A DNA stretch of 37,684 nt from a virus, in the IMG/VR virus record IMGVR_UViG_3300042876_001166, positions 1 through 37,684 of that record. One strand, 5' to 3'. Made by a program: the position numbers and the translations under genes. Positions 831 to 37,161 of this stretch are shown one piece after another. Every line of letters begins with the position of its first letter. The stretch's first letter is position 1. The notes beneath the pieces are model-generated. The model did no database searches. It was given only the letters and a program-made list of their open reading frames with translations, and was not told the DNA's origin.

Positions 831-1509
831 CCGAAATTGCCCCCATATCGTCTGCCGATTTAGCCAACTGAGCCAACAGCAAATCCAACCGATTTAACGC
901 ATCAGTCACATGCGCTTCTACCGCCAGCGCAACATCGTTAATTTGCTGCGCTGTATGGTCACGTCGAGCCCAATTATCGGCAGAATCCTTGCACATAAAT
1001 TTATAAGGCTCACCGCTTACACCTAGCGCTTGTGACTTAGCAAAACGAGCATTCAAAAATGCCTGATCATCCTTAGTCGACGGATAATGATGAACAGTTC
1101 CAAGAGCATTATGATCAACGCCAGAAACAATATGAGCCGCACAAGCGGCCCTTAATTCTTTGATCTTTTCGGCCCTCACCAATGCATAGTCAATTGCCCA
1201 GGCCGTACCATTCCAAATGGAAAAATGATCCGGCTTAGGCGTGGCCGTTAAATGACCTGGCAAAGGCCCTAGCGCATCATGATTAACGTTATTGCCCGTC
1301 GACGTTTCAAAGGCAAGTCCGCGATGATCTTCGACATTAACCCAATCATTATTGACCATCACCGGCCAAAAGCCAGGAACGATTTCAGGGGCAACATCAA
1401 CGGAATAGACGGGCTCTAAATACTCACCGGGTTCGAGAGGGCTTTCATGGCAGTCATACTGGCCAATATAAGCGCCGGTGGCTTCATCATATAAATAAAC
1501 TGTTTTCAT
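817..1509 (-). CDS. Tail fibre assembly-like protein (DUF4376-type C-terminus)
   Basis: Protein of 230 aa (235 if a GTG at 1524 is used). The N-terminus (MKTVYLYDEATGAYIGQY) has the form of tail fibre assembly and tail-tip proteins encoded just after fibre genes. A WNGTAWA motif is followed by a helical part with RAACAAHIVSG and a Cys/His-containing core resembling DUF4376. The last residues are hydrophobic. It is the last gene of the late tail unit and its stop is within 60 bases of the prophage end. The ATG at 1509 directly follows the fibre gene stop (TAATATG), which favours translational coupling and this start. The family assignment is by motif impression only. Confidence 0.7.
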   Translation of the reverse strand: MKTVYLYDEATGAYIGQYDCHESPLEPGEYLEPVYSVDVAPEIVPGFWPVMVNNDWVNVEDHRGLAFETSTGNNVNHDALGPLPGHLTATPKPDHFSIWNGTAWAIDYALVRAEKIKELRAACAAHIVSGVDHNALGTVHHYPSTKDDQAFLNARFAKSQALGVSGEPYKFMCKDSADNWARRDHTAQQINDVALAVEAHVTDALNRLDLLLAQLAKSADDMGAISAVIW

Positions 1510-1510
1510 A

Positions 1511-2647
1511 TTAGTATTTGACACACATTAAGACACGATGACCAGCGGCCAAGTTAGCAGAGCCTGAACCGGCCGCATCGGTAGTGACTGAAGAATTTGC
1601 CGTTGTAGATTGCAACACGGTATTTGATGATCCATTTGATGCGGCGGCGTTATACGCCGGCATCCCATGGGTATGGGATGGCATCTGACCAACCGTTGCC
1701 GATCCGACCGTACCACCTTGAACCAAGGCATAATTAGCCGGAAACCAAGGCATCCCAAACGTAGTAGATCCATTGCCAGCACCCCAGGTCGTCCCAATCG
1801 CCGCAAACAACGCCGCATACGTTGTCCGGGAAATATTCGTGGCAACCGTAGGGCAAGCCAAATAGCCGGCCGGCGCGGCAGTTCCGGCAAACGCTTTAAT
1901 AAAGCCAACATCATCCAAACCATTAACAGGCAGGTATGCCATACACCTAACAATCCCACCTGGGTAACCTATCCAAACAGAATAATCGCCCGCTTGAGTT
2001 TTGATATTTTTACTGCCAGGCGTAATCAAACTGGCGGAGTAAACCAAGGTTTGTGCGCCCGTGTGGTGTAGACGCTTAACCCGCCCGGCGGCCAGTGTAA
2101 TAGCCGAGATAGATGCTGCTCCAGTAACGTCTACGGTATCCCCATTCGCCGCATCCAGATCGATTGTCGCAGCACTGGCAATATCGGAACCCAATTGCTG
2201 ATACAAATTACGAACTGAAAAATCCTGACTGGGCGAACCATTCAGCGCAGCGCCACCCGGCGCAGAACTGGATATAGTCCATGCCGTCAACGATACGCCA
2301 GAACCCTGAACAGTCGAGACATTAACTTCCAGCGCGCCAGTTGTAGGGTTGTATGACGTTACGTCGCCCAGCATCCAATTGGTTGCATCAACAGTCGATG
2401 CAACCTTAACCGTCATGCCTGGTACATAACTCTTATCGGCTTCAACCGTCAAAGCAATAAGCCCGGTGCCAATACTCAAACTCGTGACACTGGTCGAGTT
2501 GACGGCGTTCAACGTCATTGCAGCGGCCATGGCATTCGCCTCGGTACGAAACAACGGTAACGCCGCCAGAAACGCATCGGCCTTGGTAATAAAATCCGCC
2601 GGCGTATCGCTACGCGACGGAACGGGAGGAAGCGCAGTAATAGCCAT
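1511..2647 (-). CDS. Tail fibre protein with C-terminal phage collar domain
   Basis: Protein of 378 aa. The N-terminus (PPVPSRSDTPADFITKADAFLAALP) is the short head of many tail fibres that attach to the tail tip. The middle is Ser/Thr/Gly/Ala-rich beta structure. From about residue 245 a phage tail-collar domain is seen: VGFIKAFAGTAAPAGYLACP, then TTYAALFAAIGTTWGAGNGSTTFGMP, and near the C-terminus QMPSHTHG. The His-rich SHTHG loop is typical of this domain, which forms the receptor-binding tip. The gene overlaps the upstream 299-aa protein gene by one base. No invertase or alternative fibre module is seen, so host range is not switchable in the Mu manner. Confidence 0.85.
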   Translation of the reverse strand: MAITALPPVPSRSDTPADFITKADAFLAALPLFRTEANAMAAAMTLNAVNSTSVTSLSIGTGLIALTVEADKSYVPGMTVKVASTVDATNWMLGDVTSYNPTTGALEVNVSTVQGSGVSLTAWTISSSAPGGAALNGSPSQDFSVRNLYQQLGSDIASAATIDLDAANGDTVDVTGAASISAITLAAGRVKRLHHTGAQTLVYSASLITPGSKNIKTQAGDYSVWIGYPGGIVRCMAYLPVNGLDDVGFIKAFAGTAAPAGYLACPTVATNISRTTYAALFAAIGTTWGAGNGSTTFGMPWFPANYALVQGGTVGSATVGQMPSHTHGMPAYNAAASNGSSNTVLQSTTANSSVTTDAAGSGSANLAAGHRVLMCVKY

Positions 2648-3546
2648 TAAGTCAGTCCTTCAATATCCAATGTACAGATTGATTCTGTTGGATAAGCAAT
2701 GGTGATGGAAAAGTCTTTATAAAAACCGTAAATCACGGTTGAGCTGTATTCGTCGGTGCCGGCATAGACAATCGGCGTGGCCCGGTAACTGGCCAGCAGC
2801 GCATGCAGCTGGTCAACATAGCCGGAATCAACCCATAATGTGAAATTGGCATGCTTGTTAAATGTCCGCTCCAGAATCGTATAATTTCCAAACGTATCAC
2901 GGGTTTTAACGCTGTAATCCTGAATACCAACCTTGACGCCAAACTGTGTGCCGCCAATGATCTTCTTAAAGCCCATCACCAACGCACCCATCAAAACCGT
3001 ATAACCCGGATCGCTTAAAATAATCTGGATAGTCGGCGCGGAATACGGCGGCAAATCGTAGGCAACAAAATCGGTCTTGCGGACAATCGGCTCATAAAAA
3101 TAAGCATACCAATCAGTAATGCCGCTATCGGAAACCAACGACGTAGTTTTGTCATACACCACGCCGTCGATCGCATCGGTCATTTTGATACGCACCGAGG
3201 CGGCGGCAATGTTCAACAGCGCCACGGAATCAATCCGGCCTATCGTCGCAAAGGTCACATCAATACTGTCGGCATTCGATGCCTGAGAAGTGATGGATTG
3301 ATCAAACAACTTCCAGCGGTTGGTCGCGCCCACTTCCAGCCACCAAGTCGGCGACGTGGCCGGCGTATGACCGATATTGCCAGCCTGCAATGACTCGTAC
3401 ACCTTATGCACATCGGCGGCGACCACTCGCACCCGCGCACCCAGCGCATAAGTAGTGCCAACCGCCCAAGCTGTGTAATCGGTTTCGGGGATATTGCAGG
3501 CCGTTAACGCCGCATCATTAACAATAAAAGGGCGGATCAGCATCAT
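2647..3546 (-). CDS. Putative distal tail/central fibre-like protein
   Basis: Protein of 299 aa, following the tape measure gene with an overlapping start. Residues about 24-70 (AWAVGTTYALGARV, then AGNIGHTPATSPTWW) look like the small aromatic carbohydrate-binding module found in phage tip proteins. The rest is beta-rich. In long-tailed phages with Mu-type replication this position holds tip proteins between tape measure and fibre. No sheath, baseplate wedge or spike genes are present here, so this protein and the fibre must form most of the tip. Exact family not recognised. Confidence 0.55.
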   Translation of the reverse strand: MMLIRPFIVNDAALTACNIPETDYTAWAVGTTYALGARVRVVAADVHKVYESLQAGNIGHTPATSPTWWLEVGATNRWKLFDQSITSQASNADSIDVTFATIGRIDSVALLNIAAASVRIKMTDAIDGVVYDKTTSLVSDSGITDWYAYFYEPIVRKTDFVAYDLPPYSAPTIQIILSDPGYTVLMGALVMGFKKIIGGTQFGVKVGIQDYSVKTRDTFGNYTILERTFNKHANFTLWVDSGYVDQLHALLASYRATPIVYAGTDEYSSTVIYGFYKDFSITIAYPTESICTLDIEGLT

Positions 3547-33125: not shown

Positions 33126-35417
33126 TTACTCTTCCCCTACGGCCTTGCGGCTGTCGTCCATCAAACGTCTCATCGTTTCCACATAGCTCAGTCGCTCTTC
33201 CTCCGGTTGTTGTTGGCTAAAATCGGCTTGCACGATCTTTAGCGGTTCCAAGGTCTCGGCCGGCATGTATTCCACCCGCTGTAAAACTTCGCCGTCGATG
33301 ACTGTTCCGTCTTCCATATCTACTAAATCGATCTTTTCCTGAAGGCTTTTTTTCTGTCTGACTTTCCGTTTTTCCTTCAGGTCGTCCATCATTGACACAG
33401 GGAAACCGGCTACTTTGTTGCCGTCCCAAACCGCTTCGCAGATGAATACCCCTTGTAAATCGCTGATCCATACGACGCTTGGGTCGCGCAAATCAAACGC
33501 CATCCGCACCTTGGTTTTGGCGGGCAGCTCAAGCAGTTTTTTGTTGAAATAGATATTGTTCAGGAAGCGCACTTCGCCGCGGCTTGGCATCCGCTCTTTA
33601 AACGGCCGGTACAGTGTGGCTTTTTCTTCATCGCTCAAATGACAAGCCCAACTATCATCAAACTTTGAGTGATACACCTCGGCAGGCGTCTTACCGCCCA
33701 ACGCACTGTGCTTATGCTGGGTGTTGTACCAATGGATTCGCTCTTCGCACAGCCGTTTAAACTCATTCCACGGCGTTACAAACTCCGGTATCTCGCCCTT
33801 GGTTTTTGCGCTATTGATGGCAACGGTATTCTTGCGCATTGCCTCGCCATCCATGCCCGTACCCTGAAAGGTCGGTAATTTTTTAGCGACTGCAATCATG
33901 GTAATGTCCCAAATCCCCTCGATAATGCCGCGCCCTTGCGGGTTACCGGGGATACCTGTTTCATGTCGAACCCCAAGCCTTGCTAGCATCCCACCGGCTG
34001 GGCAATCGATGGTTTTTGCCGTCTGGCCGGAACCGTTATCGCTGTAATAAACCAGCGGCTTCCCGTATTTGGTCATGCCGTTGCCCAGTGATTCGGAAAC
34101 GGCTATCTGGTTCTCTGAAAGGCTAAAGGCCCAGCCCACAATAAACCGGCTCGCCGCATCAATGATCAGCGTCACTTCCGGCGCGAAAGCAACCCGCTCT
34201 TTATCCGGGTGACGCACTTTGGCCTTAAAACTATGACCATCGCCCACCCACACTTCATTGCTGCTCATGTTTGACCAATCGCGGCGAACAAACGCCTGAT
34301 AGGCTTTGTATTCGGAACCGGTCGAGCGGCCCCACTCCAGCACCAAGGCCGGAATTTTCTTTCTCAGTCGAAACACCGCGTCATAACTCGGCACTTTCTC
34401 GGTAAAGCCGTGCGCCTCCCAATCGTTGGCAAACTCACGATGCGCCTCTTTAAGCGTCGGCTTTTGTGGTTTTCGATAACAAGCCAGAAACACAGGCAGC
34501 CACCACACCGTTTTCCAATCGGTTTCCGTGCGGGTTTTTTTGGGGATGCAGCTGTTGGTATCATTGCGCAAGCGTTGCCATTTCTCGACGGTGCTTTTCG
34601 ATAGCTTACCCAGCCTTTTTTCATTGACCTTAGCGTTGCAAAGCAGCACGGCGTCCCGCATATCAAGGGTTAACGTATTCTCCTGAAACCCAGCATTGAT
34701 AAAGTCCACCGCCTTTTCAACGGAGCCCGGAAACTGCTCGACAAAGTTCAGGATGTACTGGCGCGCACCGTCGGTGAGGCGTTGTTTTTCGGTGGTTTTT
34801 ACTGTCAATACTGTGATTTCGTTCTTTCCAGAGCCTCCTGAATGTCCTGATGTATCAGGTGCATCCAAAAGCTGATCGCCAATAGCCCCTTTTCCGTCAG
34901 TGTCCAATAAAGGTCCGGCGCCAGATTGATCAGCCCCATTTCTTCCAGTCGCAGTTCCTCCACCAACGATTTCGCCTCGCCTCTGGAAAACCCCTCCATT
35001 TCGTCCGACTCCGGGTGACTGGATACACTCCGCTGTTCCTCGTTGGCTAATATCCAGGTCAGCGCTCGAAATTGATACAAGCTCAGTTCCTGAAGCATTG
35101 CCCAACATTCCACTGTCATCCCCTCTGTTAATAGGGGCTTGTGTGCCGTTAATGGTGTTTTGCCTGTTTGATTCGCATGGTTCATTGAGATATTTCCTTT
35201 TTATACGTTGTAAATTTACTGCATCCTGATGCTCGGTAGGCAGCTTGGAGATCAGGAACCATTTTTTCTCGGTGCCTCTGATTTTTTCCGGCTTATAGAC
35301 CCAATTGCCGTTATCTTTGTCCGCCATGCGGCGTACAGTTTGTGGGCTTTTGCCTATCGCTGCCGCAATTTCCTCGGCATCGGCATACCTGTTTTTATCG
35401 ATCTCGCTCATTGCCAT
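33126..35417 (-). CDS. MuA-like DDE transposase
   Basis: 763 aa. Residues 1-75 are a MuA N-terminal winged-helix domain (YADAEEIAAAIGKSPQTVRR, KWFLISKLPTEHQ) for the internal operator/enhancer. Residues 78-204 are an unusual Gly/Ser/Asn-rich linker coding in a second frame for another protein. From about 210 follow the end-binding helices. The catalytic core holds D393 (VWVGDGHSF), D460 (VYYSDNGSGQ) and E500 (GNPQGRGIIE). Then come HWYNTQHKHSALGGKTPAEV and a beta-barrel (MuA C-terminal type) to about 660, and a charged tail for MuB contact. Start 35417 or 35411 (AAGG SD fits the latter). Larger than MuA (663 aa), mainly because of the linker. Confidence 0.93.
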   Translation of the reverse strand: MAMSEIDKNRYADAEEIAAAIGKSPQTVRRMADKDNGNWVYKPEKIRGTEKKWFLISKLPTEHQDAVNLQRIKRKYLNEPCESNRQNTINGTQAPINRGDDSGMLGNASGTELVSISSADLDISQRGTAECIQSPGVGRNGGVFQRRGEIVGGGTATGRNGADQSGAGPLLDTDGKGAIGDQLLDAPDTSGHSGGSGKNEITVLTVKTTEKQRLTDGARQYILNFVEQFPGSVEKAVDFINAGFQENTLTLDMRDAVLLCNAKVNEKRLGKLSKSTVEKWQRLRNDTNSCIPKKTRTETDWKTVWWLPVFLACYRKPQKPTLKEAHREFANDWEAHGFTEKVPSYDAVFRLRKKIPALVLEWGRSTGSEYKAYQAFVRRDWSNMSSNEVWVGDGHSFKAKVRHPDKERVAFAPEVTLIIDAASRFIVGWAFSLSENQIAVSESLGNGMTKYGKPLVYYSDNGSGQTAKTIDCPAGGMLARLGVRHETGIPGNPQGRGIIEGIWDITMIAVAKKLPTFQGTGMDGEAMRKNTVAINSAKTKGEIPEFVTPWNEFKRLCEERIHWYNTQHKHSALGGKTPAEVYHSKFDDSWACHLSDEEKATLYRPFKERMPSRGEVRFLNNIYFNKKLLELPAKTKVRMAFDLRDPSVVWISDLQGVFICEAVWDGNKVAGFPVSMMDDLKEKRKVRQKKSLQEKIDLVDMEDGTVIDGEVLQRVEYMPAETLEPLKIVQADFSQQQPEEERLSYVETMRRLMDDSRKAVGEE
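34805..35185 (-). CDS. Overprinted gene inside the transposase linker (126 aa)
   Basis: Open frame offset by +1 in the transposase gene. The ATG at 35185 is preceded by AAAGGAA with 9-base spacing, a good SD. The product reads like a real folded protein: MTVECWAMLQELSLYQFRAL, TWILANEEQR, GFSRGEAKSLVEELRLEEMG, LYWTLTEKGLLAISFWM, a winged-helix-like pattern with balanced composition and CTG/GAA-rich codons. The transposase frame over the same bases gives low-complexity G/S/N/D protein with many GGA and AGG/CGA-type codons. So the nested frame appears to carry the selected information. A DNA-binding regulator co-expressed with transposase is one possible role. Not recognised as a known family. 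Confidence 0.62.
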   Translation of the reverse strand: MNHANQTGKTPLTAHKPLLTEGMTVECWAMLQELSLYQFRALTWILANEEQRSVSSHPESDEMEGFSRGEAKSLVEELRLEEMGLINLAPDLYWTLTEKGLLAISFWMHLIHQDIQEALERTKSQY

Positions 35418-35454: not shown

Positions 35455-35898
35455 TCACCTTCCCCCCAATAACTTCTTAAGTGCCTGTTCCTGCTTACGA
35501 AGCTCTTCTTTCATATTGCTCAACTTGCCCAGCTGAGCCTCCAACGCCTCGCGCCCTACCGACAACTTCGCCCCGCGAATATCCGCCAGCCAGGCCAATA
35601 ACTCATGTGTTTCCAGGGCCGCTTCCAAGGCCGGCAAATACGCCACCGGAAACCGCCAGCCCTCGCGGCTTTCCGCCGTCCAGGTATCCAACTGAGTTTT
35701 AGTGATTTCATGCCCAACCAACTCACTCATCCGCGCCGCAATCTGATGCCGCGACTTTGGCGATGCCTTGATCAAGTCGCTCAATAGATGCTTCAACTCG
35801 GCGCCAATATCTAACGAGCCGGGTTTGTTGCCGCGTTCCACCGGCACCGGATATTGGTCGTCAAATAAATCGACGGTCAACGCTTCACGCCGCGTCAT
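35455..35898 (-). CDS. Hypothetical early protein (147 aa) before the transposase
   Basis: Starts MTRREALTVDLFDDQYPVPV at 35898. The middle has AELKHLLSDLIKASPKSRHQ, IAARMSELVGHEITKTQLDT, WTAESREGWRFPVAYLPALE, and the C-terminus is a coiled coil (GKLSNMKEELRKQEQALKKL). The SPKSRHQIAARMSELVG.EIT...L..WT part resembles a small HTH regulator type found beside B3-like transposase genes. Its start lies within the Ner gene end, so both are co-translated. Confidence 0.72.
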   Translation of the reverse strand: MTRREALTVDLFDDQYPVPVERGNKPGSLDIGAELKHLLSDLIKASPKSRHQIAARMSELVGHEITKTQLDTWTAESREGWRFPVAYLPALEAALETHELLAWLADIRGAKLSVGREALEAQLGKLSNMKEELRKQEQALKKLLGGR

Positions 35899-36241
35899 GT
35901 TCACGAACTCGTTTATCTTTTACATTGACGCCGGGAGCGAAACGCTTAAACTTTAAGCCTCGAAACCCGCGCGGTTTGACCTCGCCATTTTCTAAGTAGC
36001 GGCTCGGCCAAATCTCTTTTGGATGCTTTCCAAGAGCCTCGGCAATGCGTTGCTCGGCGATGGGATAACTGGTAATCATCGCGCGGGAAAAGGTGGAGCT
36101 GGTGGTCAGACCGTGTTCCTCCGCCAGAGCCTTCAACGTCCAACCCGCCTTATGCAAGGCGGCAACGATGTCGGCAGGGTGCCAATCCTCGACGGAAATT
36201 TCTTCCTCGGGATTGGCTTTTTTTGGGTCTTTATTGGTCAT
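35885..36241 (-). CDS. Ner-like regulator (Nlp/HTH_35 family)
   Basis: 118 aa from ATG 36241 (AGGA SD 8 bases upstream); ATG 36262 lacks an SD. The core DWHPADIVAALHKAGWTLKA, LAEEHGLTTSSTFSRAMITS, YPIAEQRIAEALGKHPKEIW, PSRY is the Ner/Nlp HTH domain almost end to end. In Mu, Ner shuts down early transcription and repressor expression after the first round. Here the C-terminus is longer by about 35 basic residues. Its gene is first after the early promoter. The RNA start at about 36271 leaves a 30-base leader. Confidence 0.85.
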   Translation of the reverse strand: MTNKDPKKANPEEEISVEDWHPADIVAALHKAGWTLKALAEEHGLTTSSTFSRAMITSYPIAEQRIAEALGKHPKEIWPSRYLENGEVKPRGFRGLKFKRFAPGVNVKDKRVREHDAA

Positions 36242-36277
36242 GCTTTTGTCCTGTTTGTTCATGTCTAAGGCGTAGAC

Positions 36278-36306
36278 ATTACACTCCAAAATTTTGGAGT
36301 AGTCAA
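36278..36306 (-). promoter_or_regulatory. Early promoter Pe
   Basis: On the minus strand TTGACT (36306-36301), exact 17-bp spacer, TGTAAT (36283-36278). It is the best sigma-70 promoter in the prophage. It reads into ner and the transposase genes. Downstream of the -10 box GTCTA-N5-TAGAC (36277-36263) forms a further dyad at the RNA start. Confidence 0.88.
36283..36300. promoter_or_regulatory. 18-bp palindromic operator in the Pe spacer
   Basis: ACTCCAAAATTTTGGAGT is a perfect 18-bp palindrome filling the space between -35 and -10 of Pe. A protein bound here would block RNA polymerase. Ner is the first candidate, because the motif differs from the GAGCGCAAT half sites near the repressor gene. 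Confidence 0.75.
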
Positions 36307-36330
36307 CACCAAAAACATATAAATTTTCAT

Positions 36331-36459
36331 GAGCACAATTGGCTAAAACATGGATTATGGAGTTTTTATGGAATCGTTTGTATATCAAAGACTTGCATTG
36401 TGCTCACGCGAGCGCAATGAAATCACCAGAATGAGCGCAATTGCCGCGCGATTGCGCTC
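36331..36459. promoter_or_regulatory. Operator cluster of GAGCGCAAT half sites
   Basis: Five 9-bp half sites: GAGCACAAT 36331-36339 (+), ATTGTGCTC 36397-36405 (-), GAGCGCAAT 36410-36418 (+), GAGCGCAAT 36433-36441 (+), ATTGCGCTC 36451-36459 (-). Pairs two-three and four-five are inverted. The last touches the repressor start codon. They are probably operators of the prophage repressor, allowing autoregulation and repression of the early promoter. Confidence 0.78.
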
Positions 36460-37161
36460 ATGACTATCGGGGCAAGATTGAAGGAATGGAGAGCCTTAAA
36501 AAAACTGGGCCAAAAAGAGGCTAGCTCCATATCTGGAGTGTCTTTTAGCACTTATCAGAATTATGAGATGGATATAAGCCCACCAGGAGCAAAGTCACTG
36601 ACAGGCTTTATTAAGGCGGGCATCAACGCCAATTGGCTAATGACAGGCGAAGGCCCAATGCTGCTGGAAGACGCCAAGCAGTTGCCGCCTGGCCTGCGTA
36701 TCGAGATCGATAAAGTGCTGGCTGAAGGTGGAGACCCAGAGGCCGCCATCCGCCAAGATGCTGCAACGCATAAACTCTGCGCTGAGTATCAAGCCGCGCA
36801 AGCGCTACTTGAATCAATAGTGAGCGAGGTAGGCGTTACCCTGCCTAAAAAGACGTTCGATAGCTTTAAAACACTGCTGTGGCTCAGTGACGGCGAGGAA
36901 AACACGCTTGCAAAGGCGGCAATAATGGAATTGGCCACCTATATCAACAAGCAGACTGCGCCTGTCCCAACATCGCCCATCGATTATGCGCTACTGCAAA
37001 ACTTGATCGAAATGCTGGAGAAAGCCTTGTCTAAACGCCGGCTGGTGCTTGAGCCGGCCCGCAAAGCGGCGGCCATTCAGATAATGTATGAATATTGCAT
37101 GCTGGATGAAACCCAAGCCACGCCGGCCACGGTAGAGCGCTTCCTTAAACTAGTCGCCTAG
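36460..37161 (+). CDS. Prophage repressor, XRE-type HTH
   Basis: 233 aa. The N-terminal HTH (IGARLKEWRALKKLGQKEAS, SISGVSFSTYQNYEMDIS, then FIKAGINANWLMTGEGPM) is of the CI/XRE type with the NWLLTGEGP ending common in phage repressors. No LexA/S24 protease domain is visible: the C-terminal 150 residues are helical (LLESIVSEVGVTLPKKTFD, LLQNLIEMLEKALSKRR). Induction would thus not be by self-cleavage, which fits the presence of an antirepressor. The ATG directly follows an operator half site and has no SD, so translation may be leaderless-like or weak. Confidence 0.88.
   Translation: MTIGARLKEWRALKKLGQKEASSISGVSFSTYQNYEMDISPPGAKSLTGFIKAGINANWLMTGEGPMLLEDAKQLPPGLRIEIDKVLAEGGDPEAAIRQDAATHKLCAEYQAAQALLESIVSEVGVTLPKKTFDSFKTLLWLSDGEENTLAKAAIMELATYINKQTAPVPTSPIDYALLQNLIEMLEKALSKRRLVLEPARKAAAIQIMYEYCMLDETQATPATVERFLKLVA

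Follow-up and report, generated by a model that had tools for sequence, protein, structure and literature searches.

MuA is among the best studied transposases, and the Rz1 gene of phage lambda lies in the +1 frame relative to Rz. The embedded, out-of-frame Rz/Rz1 spanin genes of lambda are described in PMC5295617 and PMC6139136. MuA tolerates insertions at its Ialpha/Ibeta junction and can even gain activity from them (PMC3362531), and a codon-usage criterion is available for telling the older from the newer of two overlapping frames (PMC3744397). In the literature searched, no MuA transposase with a nested gene is reported, and an earlier note on this DNA, made from the sequence alone, knew of none. 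Here, we describe a locus in a Mu-like phage that, judging from sequence comparisons, is very probably a true dual-coding gene, specifying a MuA-like transposase and a separate protein nested within it.

A reading frame nested in a MuA-like transposase gene

The window (the whole stretch of DNA analysed, i.e., 37,684 nucleotides forming positions 1 to 37,684 of IMG/VR record IMGVR_UViG_3300042876_001166) is a Mu-like phage record with the following features around the transposase:

33126..35417, minus strand: MuA-like DDE transposase, 763 aa, uninterrupted (ORF, Pfam, phrog, alignment to annotated phage transposases)
35202..35417, minus strand: transposase residues 1-72, Ialpha-like N-terminal domain (alignment to homologue N-termini)
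34797..35201, minus strand: transposase residues 73-207, low-complexity G/S/N/D linker (alignments, composition, codon usage)
34518..34796, minus strand: transposase residues 208-300, presumed end-binding Ibeta/Igamma region (position inferred from alignment)
34805..35185, minus strand: nested gene, +1 frame, 126 aa plus stop, predicted MarR-like winged-helix protein
35194..35200, minus strand: Shine-Dalgarno AAAGGAA of the nested gene (sequence)
34806..34808, minus strand: TTG in the transposase frame, overlapping the nested stop TGA; possible internal transposase start (sequence)
35455..35904, minus strand: upstream early gene, 149 aa (ORF; same place in several relatives)
35885..36388, minus strand: Ner-like early DNA-binding protein ORF, start codon uncertain (ORF)

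The transposase matches phrog_310 transposase (5e-128) and Pfam Mu-transpos_C (5e-11, above cut-off), and contains the DDE catalytic and Mu-transposase C-terminal domains, with D393, D460 and E500 invariant in the alignment. Its N-terminal domain aligns across homologues and is fused to the end-binding domain, and residues 208-300 are conserved in all homologues. The nested ORF opens in transposase codon 78, AAAGGAA (35200-35194; predicted duplex -5.6 kcal/mol) being followed by ATATCTCA and then by the ATG (35185-35183). The ORF, its coordinates, +1 offset, start and Shine-Dalgarno are thus all as first described in the earlier note, and alignments place it between the N-terminal domain and the presumed end-binding region. 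The description of the linker as low-complexity with atypical codons likewise holds: G, S, N and D make up 44% of the transposase-frame residues over the nested bases, and the codon score of the linker is -0.39 versus +0.13 for a catalytic control segment, the nested frame scoring +0.02. When codons were resampled with the transposase protein fixed, the +1 frame stayed open in 4.5-6.4% of trials, and an open +1 frame is only mildly surprising from the window taken alone; in the converse test, with the nested protein fixed, the transposase frame stayed open in 0.08% of trials.

The upstream early genes have counterparts elsewhere, the 149-aa type upstream of the transposase in L008-L011 and the same Ner-like protein (DWHPA...) upstream of the transposase in most relatives. 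A divergent 233-aa ORF with a helix-turn-helix-like start (36460-37161, plus strand) is probably a phage repressor facing the early operon.

Homologues and distribution of the nested gene

Relatives were reached via the transposase, by scans of viral and genome contigs. Homologous nested ORFs, complete or near-complete, were found in 16 distinct transposases (window included), always in the +1 frame; their starts fall at transposase codon ~71-83, in the stretch separating Ialpha from the end-binding domain. Carriers come from the subfamily of the window and from very remote subfamilies, and many of these Mu-like phages occur in methane-oxidising bacteria. The comparison of linker lengths proposed in the earlier note gave a clear pattern: all close relatives with a long linker (L008, L012, L013, L088/L089, L090, L092, L094, L135 and L136) have a +1 ORF of 94-157 aa, whereas no nested ORF is present in five short-linker close relatives (L009, L010, L011, L091 and L093) or in about 130 remoter short-linker transposases, the +1 frame of short-linker relatives showing stops or no such ORF. 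The same transposase occurs in annotated Mu-like phages (Mannheimia, Haemophilus SuMu, Klebsiella, Pseudomonas), where its linker is short and holds no nested ORF.

A search of 311 genomes from the order of the L136 Methylobacter genome gave further nested +1 cases at the same position (L170, L167, L168, L169 and L185), the transposases of L167-L169 being only 23-26% identical to that of the window; L157, at the end of a contig, is a partial case. In a scan with the window-like subgroup, the nested protein of L206, whose transposase is of the remote kind, matched that of the window directly (E 4e-13). No new nested case was found in 369 genomes of the wider class and 399 genomes of the order of L135, and the family therefore seems to be concentrated in the phages of a single bacterial order.

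The nested proteins align to one another across members, although the window copy shares no more than about 20-36% identity with the rest. A profile built without the window recovers the window copy (E=1.6e-9), and leave-one-out profiles recover every member (weakest L136, E 0.0023), while unrelated ORFs score no better than E 0.5. Direct searches with the window nested protein gave no match in phage records, plasmid records or viral contigs, nor did searches of phage records with two better-conserved nested members and the stand-alone copy described below; a profile of 10 members varied too much to be used in scanning contigs. A Shine-Dalgarno of the AGGAG or GGAG type is present at the homologous site in most relatives; when single members are tested by synonymous resampling, its strength is not significant, since it is dictated in part by the transposase residues.

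Two other loci are of note. L204 (1775-2251; transposase from 1465) has a 158-aa +1 linker ORF, with an AGGA motif before its start and P(open) 0.002, for which no similarity to the nested family could be detected (hhalign prob 0.1), and which may be another gene, unrelated to this family, nested at the corresponding site. In L162, a 64-aa ORF (1027-1218) overlaps an upstream in-frame extension of the transposase (1110-1218), and the transposase start is likely a later ATG.

Selection on the two frames

In a frame-blind DNA alignment of L008 and L013, 24, 22 and 51 differences fall at nested codon positions 1, 2 and 3, respectively, and across the frame-blind alignments the least variable sites are those of nested position 2, i.e., transposase position 3, normally the most variable. 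Under simulated selection on the transposase frame alone, the observed nested identity was reached in 0 of 300 simulations in each of six pairs, and under simulated selection on the nested frame alone the transposase frame was kept open in no pair (P=0). In the L008/L013 pair, nested-frame selection alone accounts for the transposase-frame identity; in the other pairs the linker is slightly more conserved than under this simulation, except in the window/L136 pair, where it is less so. Synonymous resampling agrees with the simulations in both directions. The transposase frame is stop-free in every complete member, versus 2-9 stops expected given the nested proteins. The simulations and the codon-position differences show that the nested protein is under purifying selection beyond that arising from the transposase frame, and that the transposase frame is constrained chiefly to avoid stops, its linker residues being nearly unconstrained in most pairs. 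The earlier note had proposed a second gene nested in the transposase linker, and the retention of frame and start among homologues, together with selection acting mainly on the nested frame, bears this out; the outcome it had named in advance as refuting, i.e., no conservation of the nested frame or its Shine-Dalgarno and selection on the transposase frame only, is not what the homologues show.

That a low-complexity linker simply leaves the +1 frame open, with no second protein made, is refuted by the conservation and selection tests and hardly deserves any credence: although P(open) is about 0.05 for the window alone and long chance ORFs do occur in GC-rich relatives, the latter mostly have the opposite codon-usage pattern, while here a homologous protein lies at the same place in 16 transposases, is recovered by the leave-one-out profile and is under purifying selection in its own frame. 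Long alternative ORFs in L054, L058, L111, L112, L126, L128 and L132, where the transposase frame has the better codon usage, were rejected as chance occurrences; L125 was not counted among these.

In most pairs the linker residues are almost free of constraint, and in the window, L136 and L092 a TTG overlaps the stop of the nested gene; both could also be explained by three consecutive genes (an Ialpha protein, the nested gene and a shorter transposase) with an accidental long transposase ORF. This arrangement is very unlikely, since no complete member has a stop in the transposase frame despite those expected and nested-frame selection never keeps this frame open in simulation, since Ialpha is fused to the remainder of the protein in relatives without the nested gene, and since the internal TTG start is not conserved. 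Translational coupling through this TTG was likewise rejected as a general mechanism, homologues often ending in TAA without it.

Relative age of the two frames

Measured against the rest of the same transposase, codon usage averages +0.01 in the nested frame and -0.29 in the linker, which falls under even the third frame; the nested frame is better than the linker in 13 of 14 members (P=0.0002). One element has, besides the copy nested in its transposase, a stand-alone homologue of the nested gene (L160 1483-1857; L167 3931-4308). This homologue lies upstream, between the transposase and a Ner-like gene; it has a Shine-Dalgarno of its own, and the other frames are interrupted by stops. Judged by the criterion of PMC3744397, the codon usage makes the nested frame probably the older gene and the transposase linker the newer, overprinted reading; the stand-alone homologue points the same way. 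The L160 stand-alone homologue has a C-terminal tail (MAKAQAKAEGGEV) similar to the end of the neighbouring Ner-like protein.

The window and L010, which has no nested gene, are 64% identical in Ialpha and 71% in the catalytic part, with a linker of 135 residues in the window versus 35 aligned in L010 and no real similarity between them, and may be regarded as a near empty-site pair. Remote transposases offer what appears to be another empty-site-like pair, L203 (reverse 1291-3393, without the nested gene) and L168 (reverse 919-3309, with it), which share near-identical Ialpha stretches. On the catalytic tree, the nested state requires five changes, at least two of them forced, so gain, loss or exchange of the module has happened more than once.

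The reverse and more classical direction, in which the nested gene arose de novo over an older transposase linker and the stand-alone copy is a later duplicate, would fit the long linker in both major transposase lineages and the fact that a stand-alone homologue has been seen so far in just one element. Nevertheless, codon usage consistently suits the nested frame and not the linker, the linker of the nearest relatives is short and unrelated, and the predicted fold is common and ancient, all of which makes a de novo origin improbable. The earlier note had held that the linker was extended to host a second protein; the long dual-coding linker stands, but codon usage and the stand-alone homologue indicate that the polarity is probably reversed. 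With the nested frame as the older one, a pre-existing gene would have come to lie at the insertion-tolerant Ialpha/Ibeta junction, the transposase reading across it as a disordered linker.

Predicted structure and possible role of the nested protein

AlphaFold models of two members, of moderate confidence (mean pLDDT 75 and 71), agree on a winged helix: two helices precede a third, after which come a wing of two strands and a long C-terminal helix. In structure comparison, MarR-family regulators (MepR, MexR) and TubR match best, with VIA Z scores of 9-10 (up to 9.9); by Foldseek, the best E is about 0.03, with no match under E 0.001. A MarR-type winged helix, probably dimeric through the long C-terminal helix, is the likely fold on these models, and the winged-helix character first read from the sequence is upheld, as a prediction, by both AlphaFold and structure comparison. 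No convincing family could be assigned from Pfam, NCBIfam, PHROGs or PADLOC, and no MarR model of Pfam or NCBIfam was matched; phrog_7665 (E 0.0065, covering just 25 residues of one member) was rejected as the nested family.

Regarding expression, ribosomes from the transposase start would read straight through to give the full-length MuA-like transposase, while others would initiate internally at the Shine-Dalgarno and ATG near codon 78 to give the 126-aa +1 protein, so that both proteins would come off one message and the nested protein would be made at the same early time as the transposase. Because one message would serve both, its synthesis may be tied to that of the transposase, and we tentatively favour, at somewhat less than even confidence, an early regulator or transposition accessory factor. 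A fuller scenario is quite conceivable, if also short of an even chance: a pre-existing regulator gene was captured inside the transposase, persists as a present/absent module in divergent lineages, and encodes a transpososome or early-operon regulator.

DNA binding is plausible for some members, and the wing is basic in one subgroup; it is not obvious in general, because acidic members with a third helix that is not basic are numerous, the window protein being strongly acidic (net -9, pI 4.9). Mu-like early regions carry host-directed genes. This background and the acidic, non-basic character of many members fit the main rival on function, namely that the nested protein is real but acts in host takeover, anti-defence or protein binding through its winged helix, and not in transposition or early transcription. 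Its position inside the transposase, its apparent exchange with the transposase between phages and its MarR-like fold speak against such a role, none of them decisively, and PADLOC finds nothing; a host-directed or protein-binding role is a serious possibility, though clearly below an even chance.

Comparison with known systems

A conserved protein family lies inside a MuA-like gene and was missed by the annotation libraries searched. If confirmed, the locus would represent an unusual nesting, in which the inner gene is older and the newer reading is a disordered stretch of an essential enzyme. Such a locus would illustrate how a linker that tolerates insertions can accommodate another gene, and it would bring a hitherto overlooked component into the regulation of Mu-like transposition. 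The same screen could be applied to other genes whose long linkers are of low complexity and use atypical codons.

Nested out-of-frame genes are already known, both as lambda Rz1 and as overprinted viral genes, while the older-inside polarity is unusual. As at the Rz/Rz1 locus, a complete same-strand, out-of-frame gene lies inside a phage gene and both products are selected. Rz and Rz1 are partner lysis proteins, whereas the host gene here encodes a DDE transposase and the nested protein belongs to an unnamed winged-helix family; moreover, it is the nested rather than the enclosing frame that looks older. The window transposase shares with the MuA family (PMC3362531) the order Ialpha, end-binding, DDE catalytic and C-terminal region and the insertion-tolerant Ialpha/Ibeta junction, but its linker is about 100 residues longer than that of the nearest gene-free relative and encodes the +1 protein. 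With MarR-family regulators (MepR, MexR, MarR) and plasmid TubR, the nested protein is predicted to share the order of three helices, a wing and a long helix (VIA Z 9-10 across 80-90 residues); unlike them, it has no sequence-family match, many members are acidic, and the gene lies inside a transposase. Finally, as in de novo overprinted viral genes (PMC3744397, PMC8227390), one DNA gives two proteins and the newer frame is atypical in codon usage and composition, whereas at this locus an essential enzyme appears to contain the newer, disordered frame, and the nested gene appears to be the older of the two.
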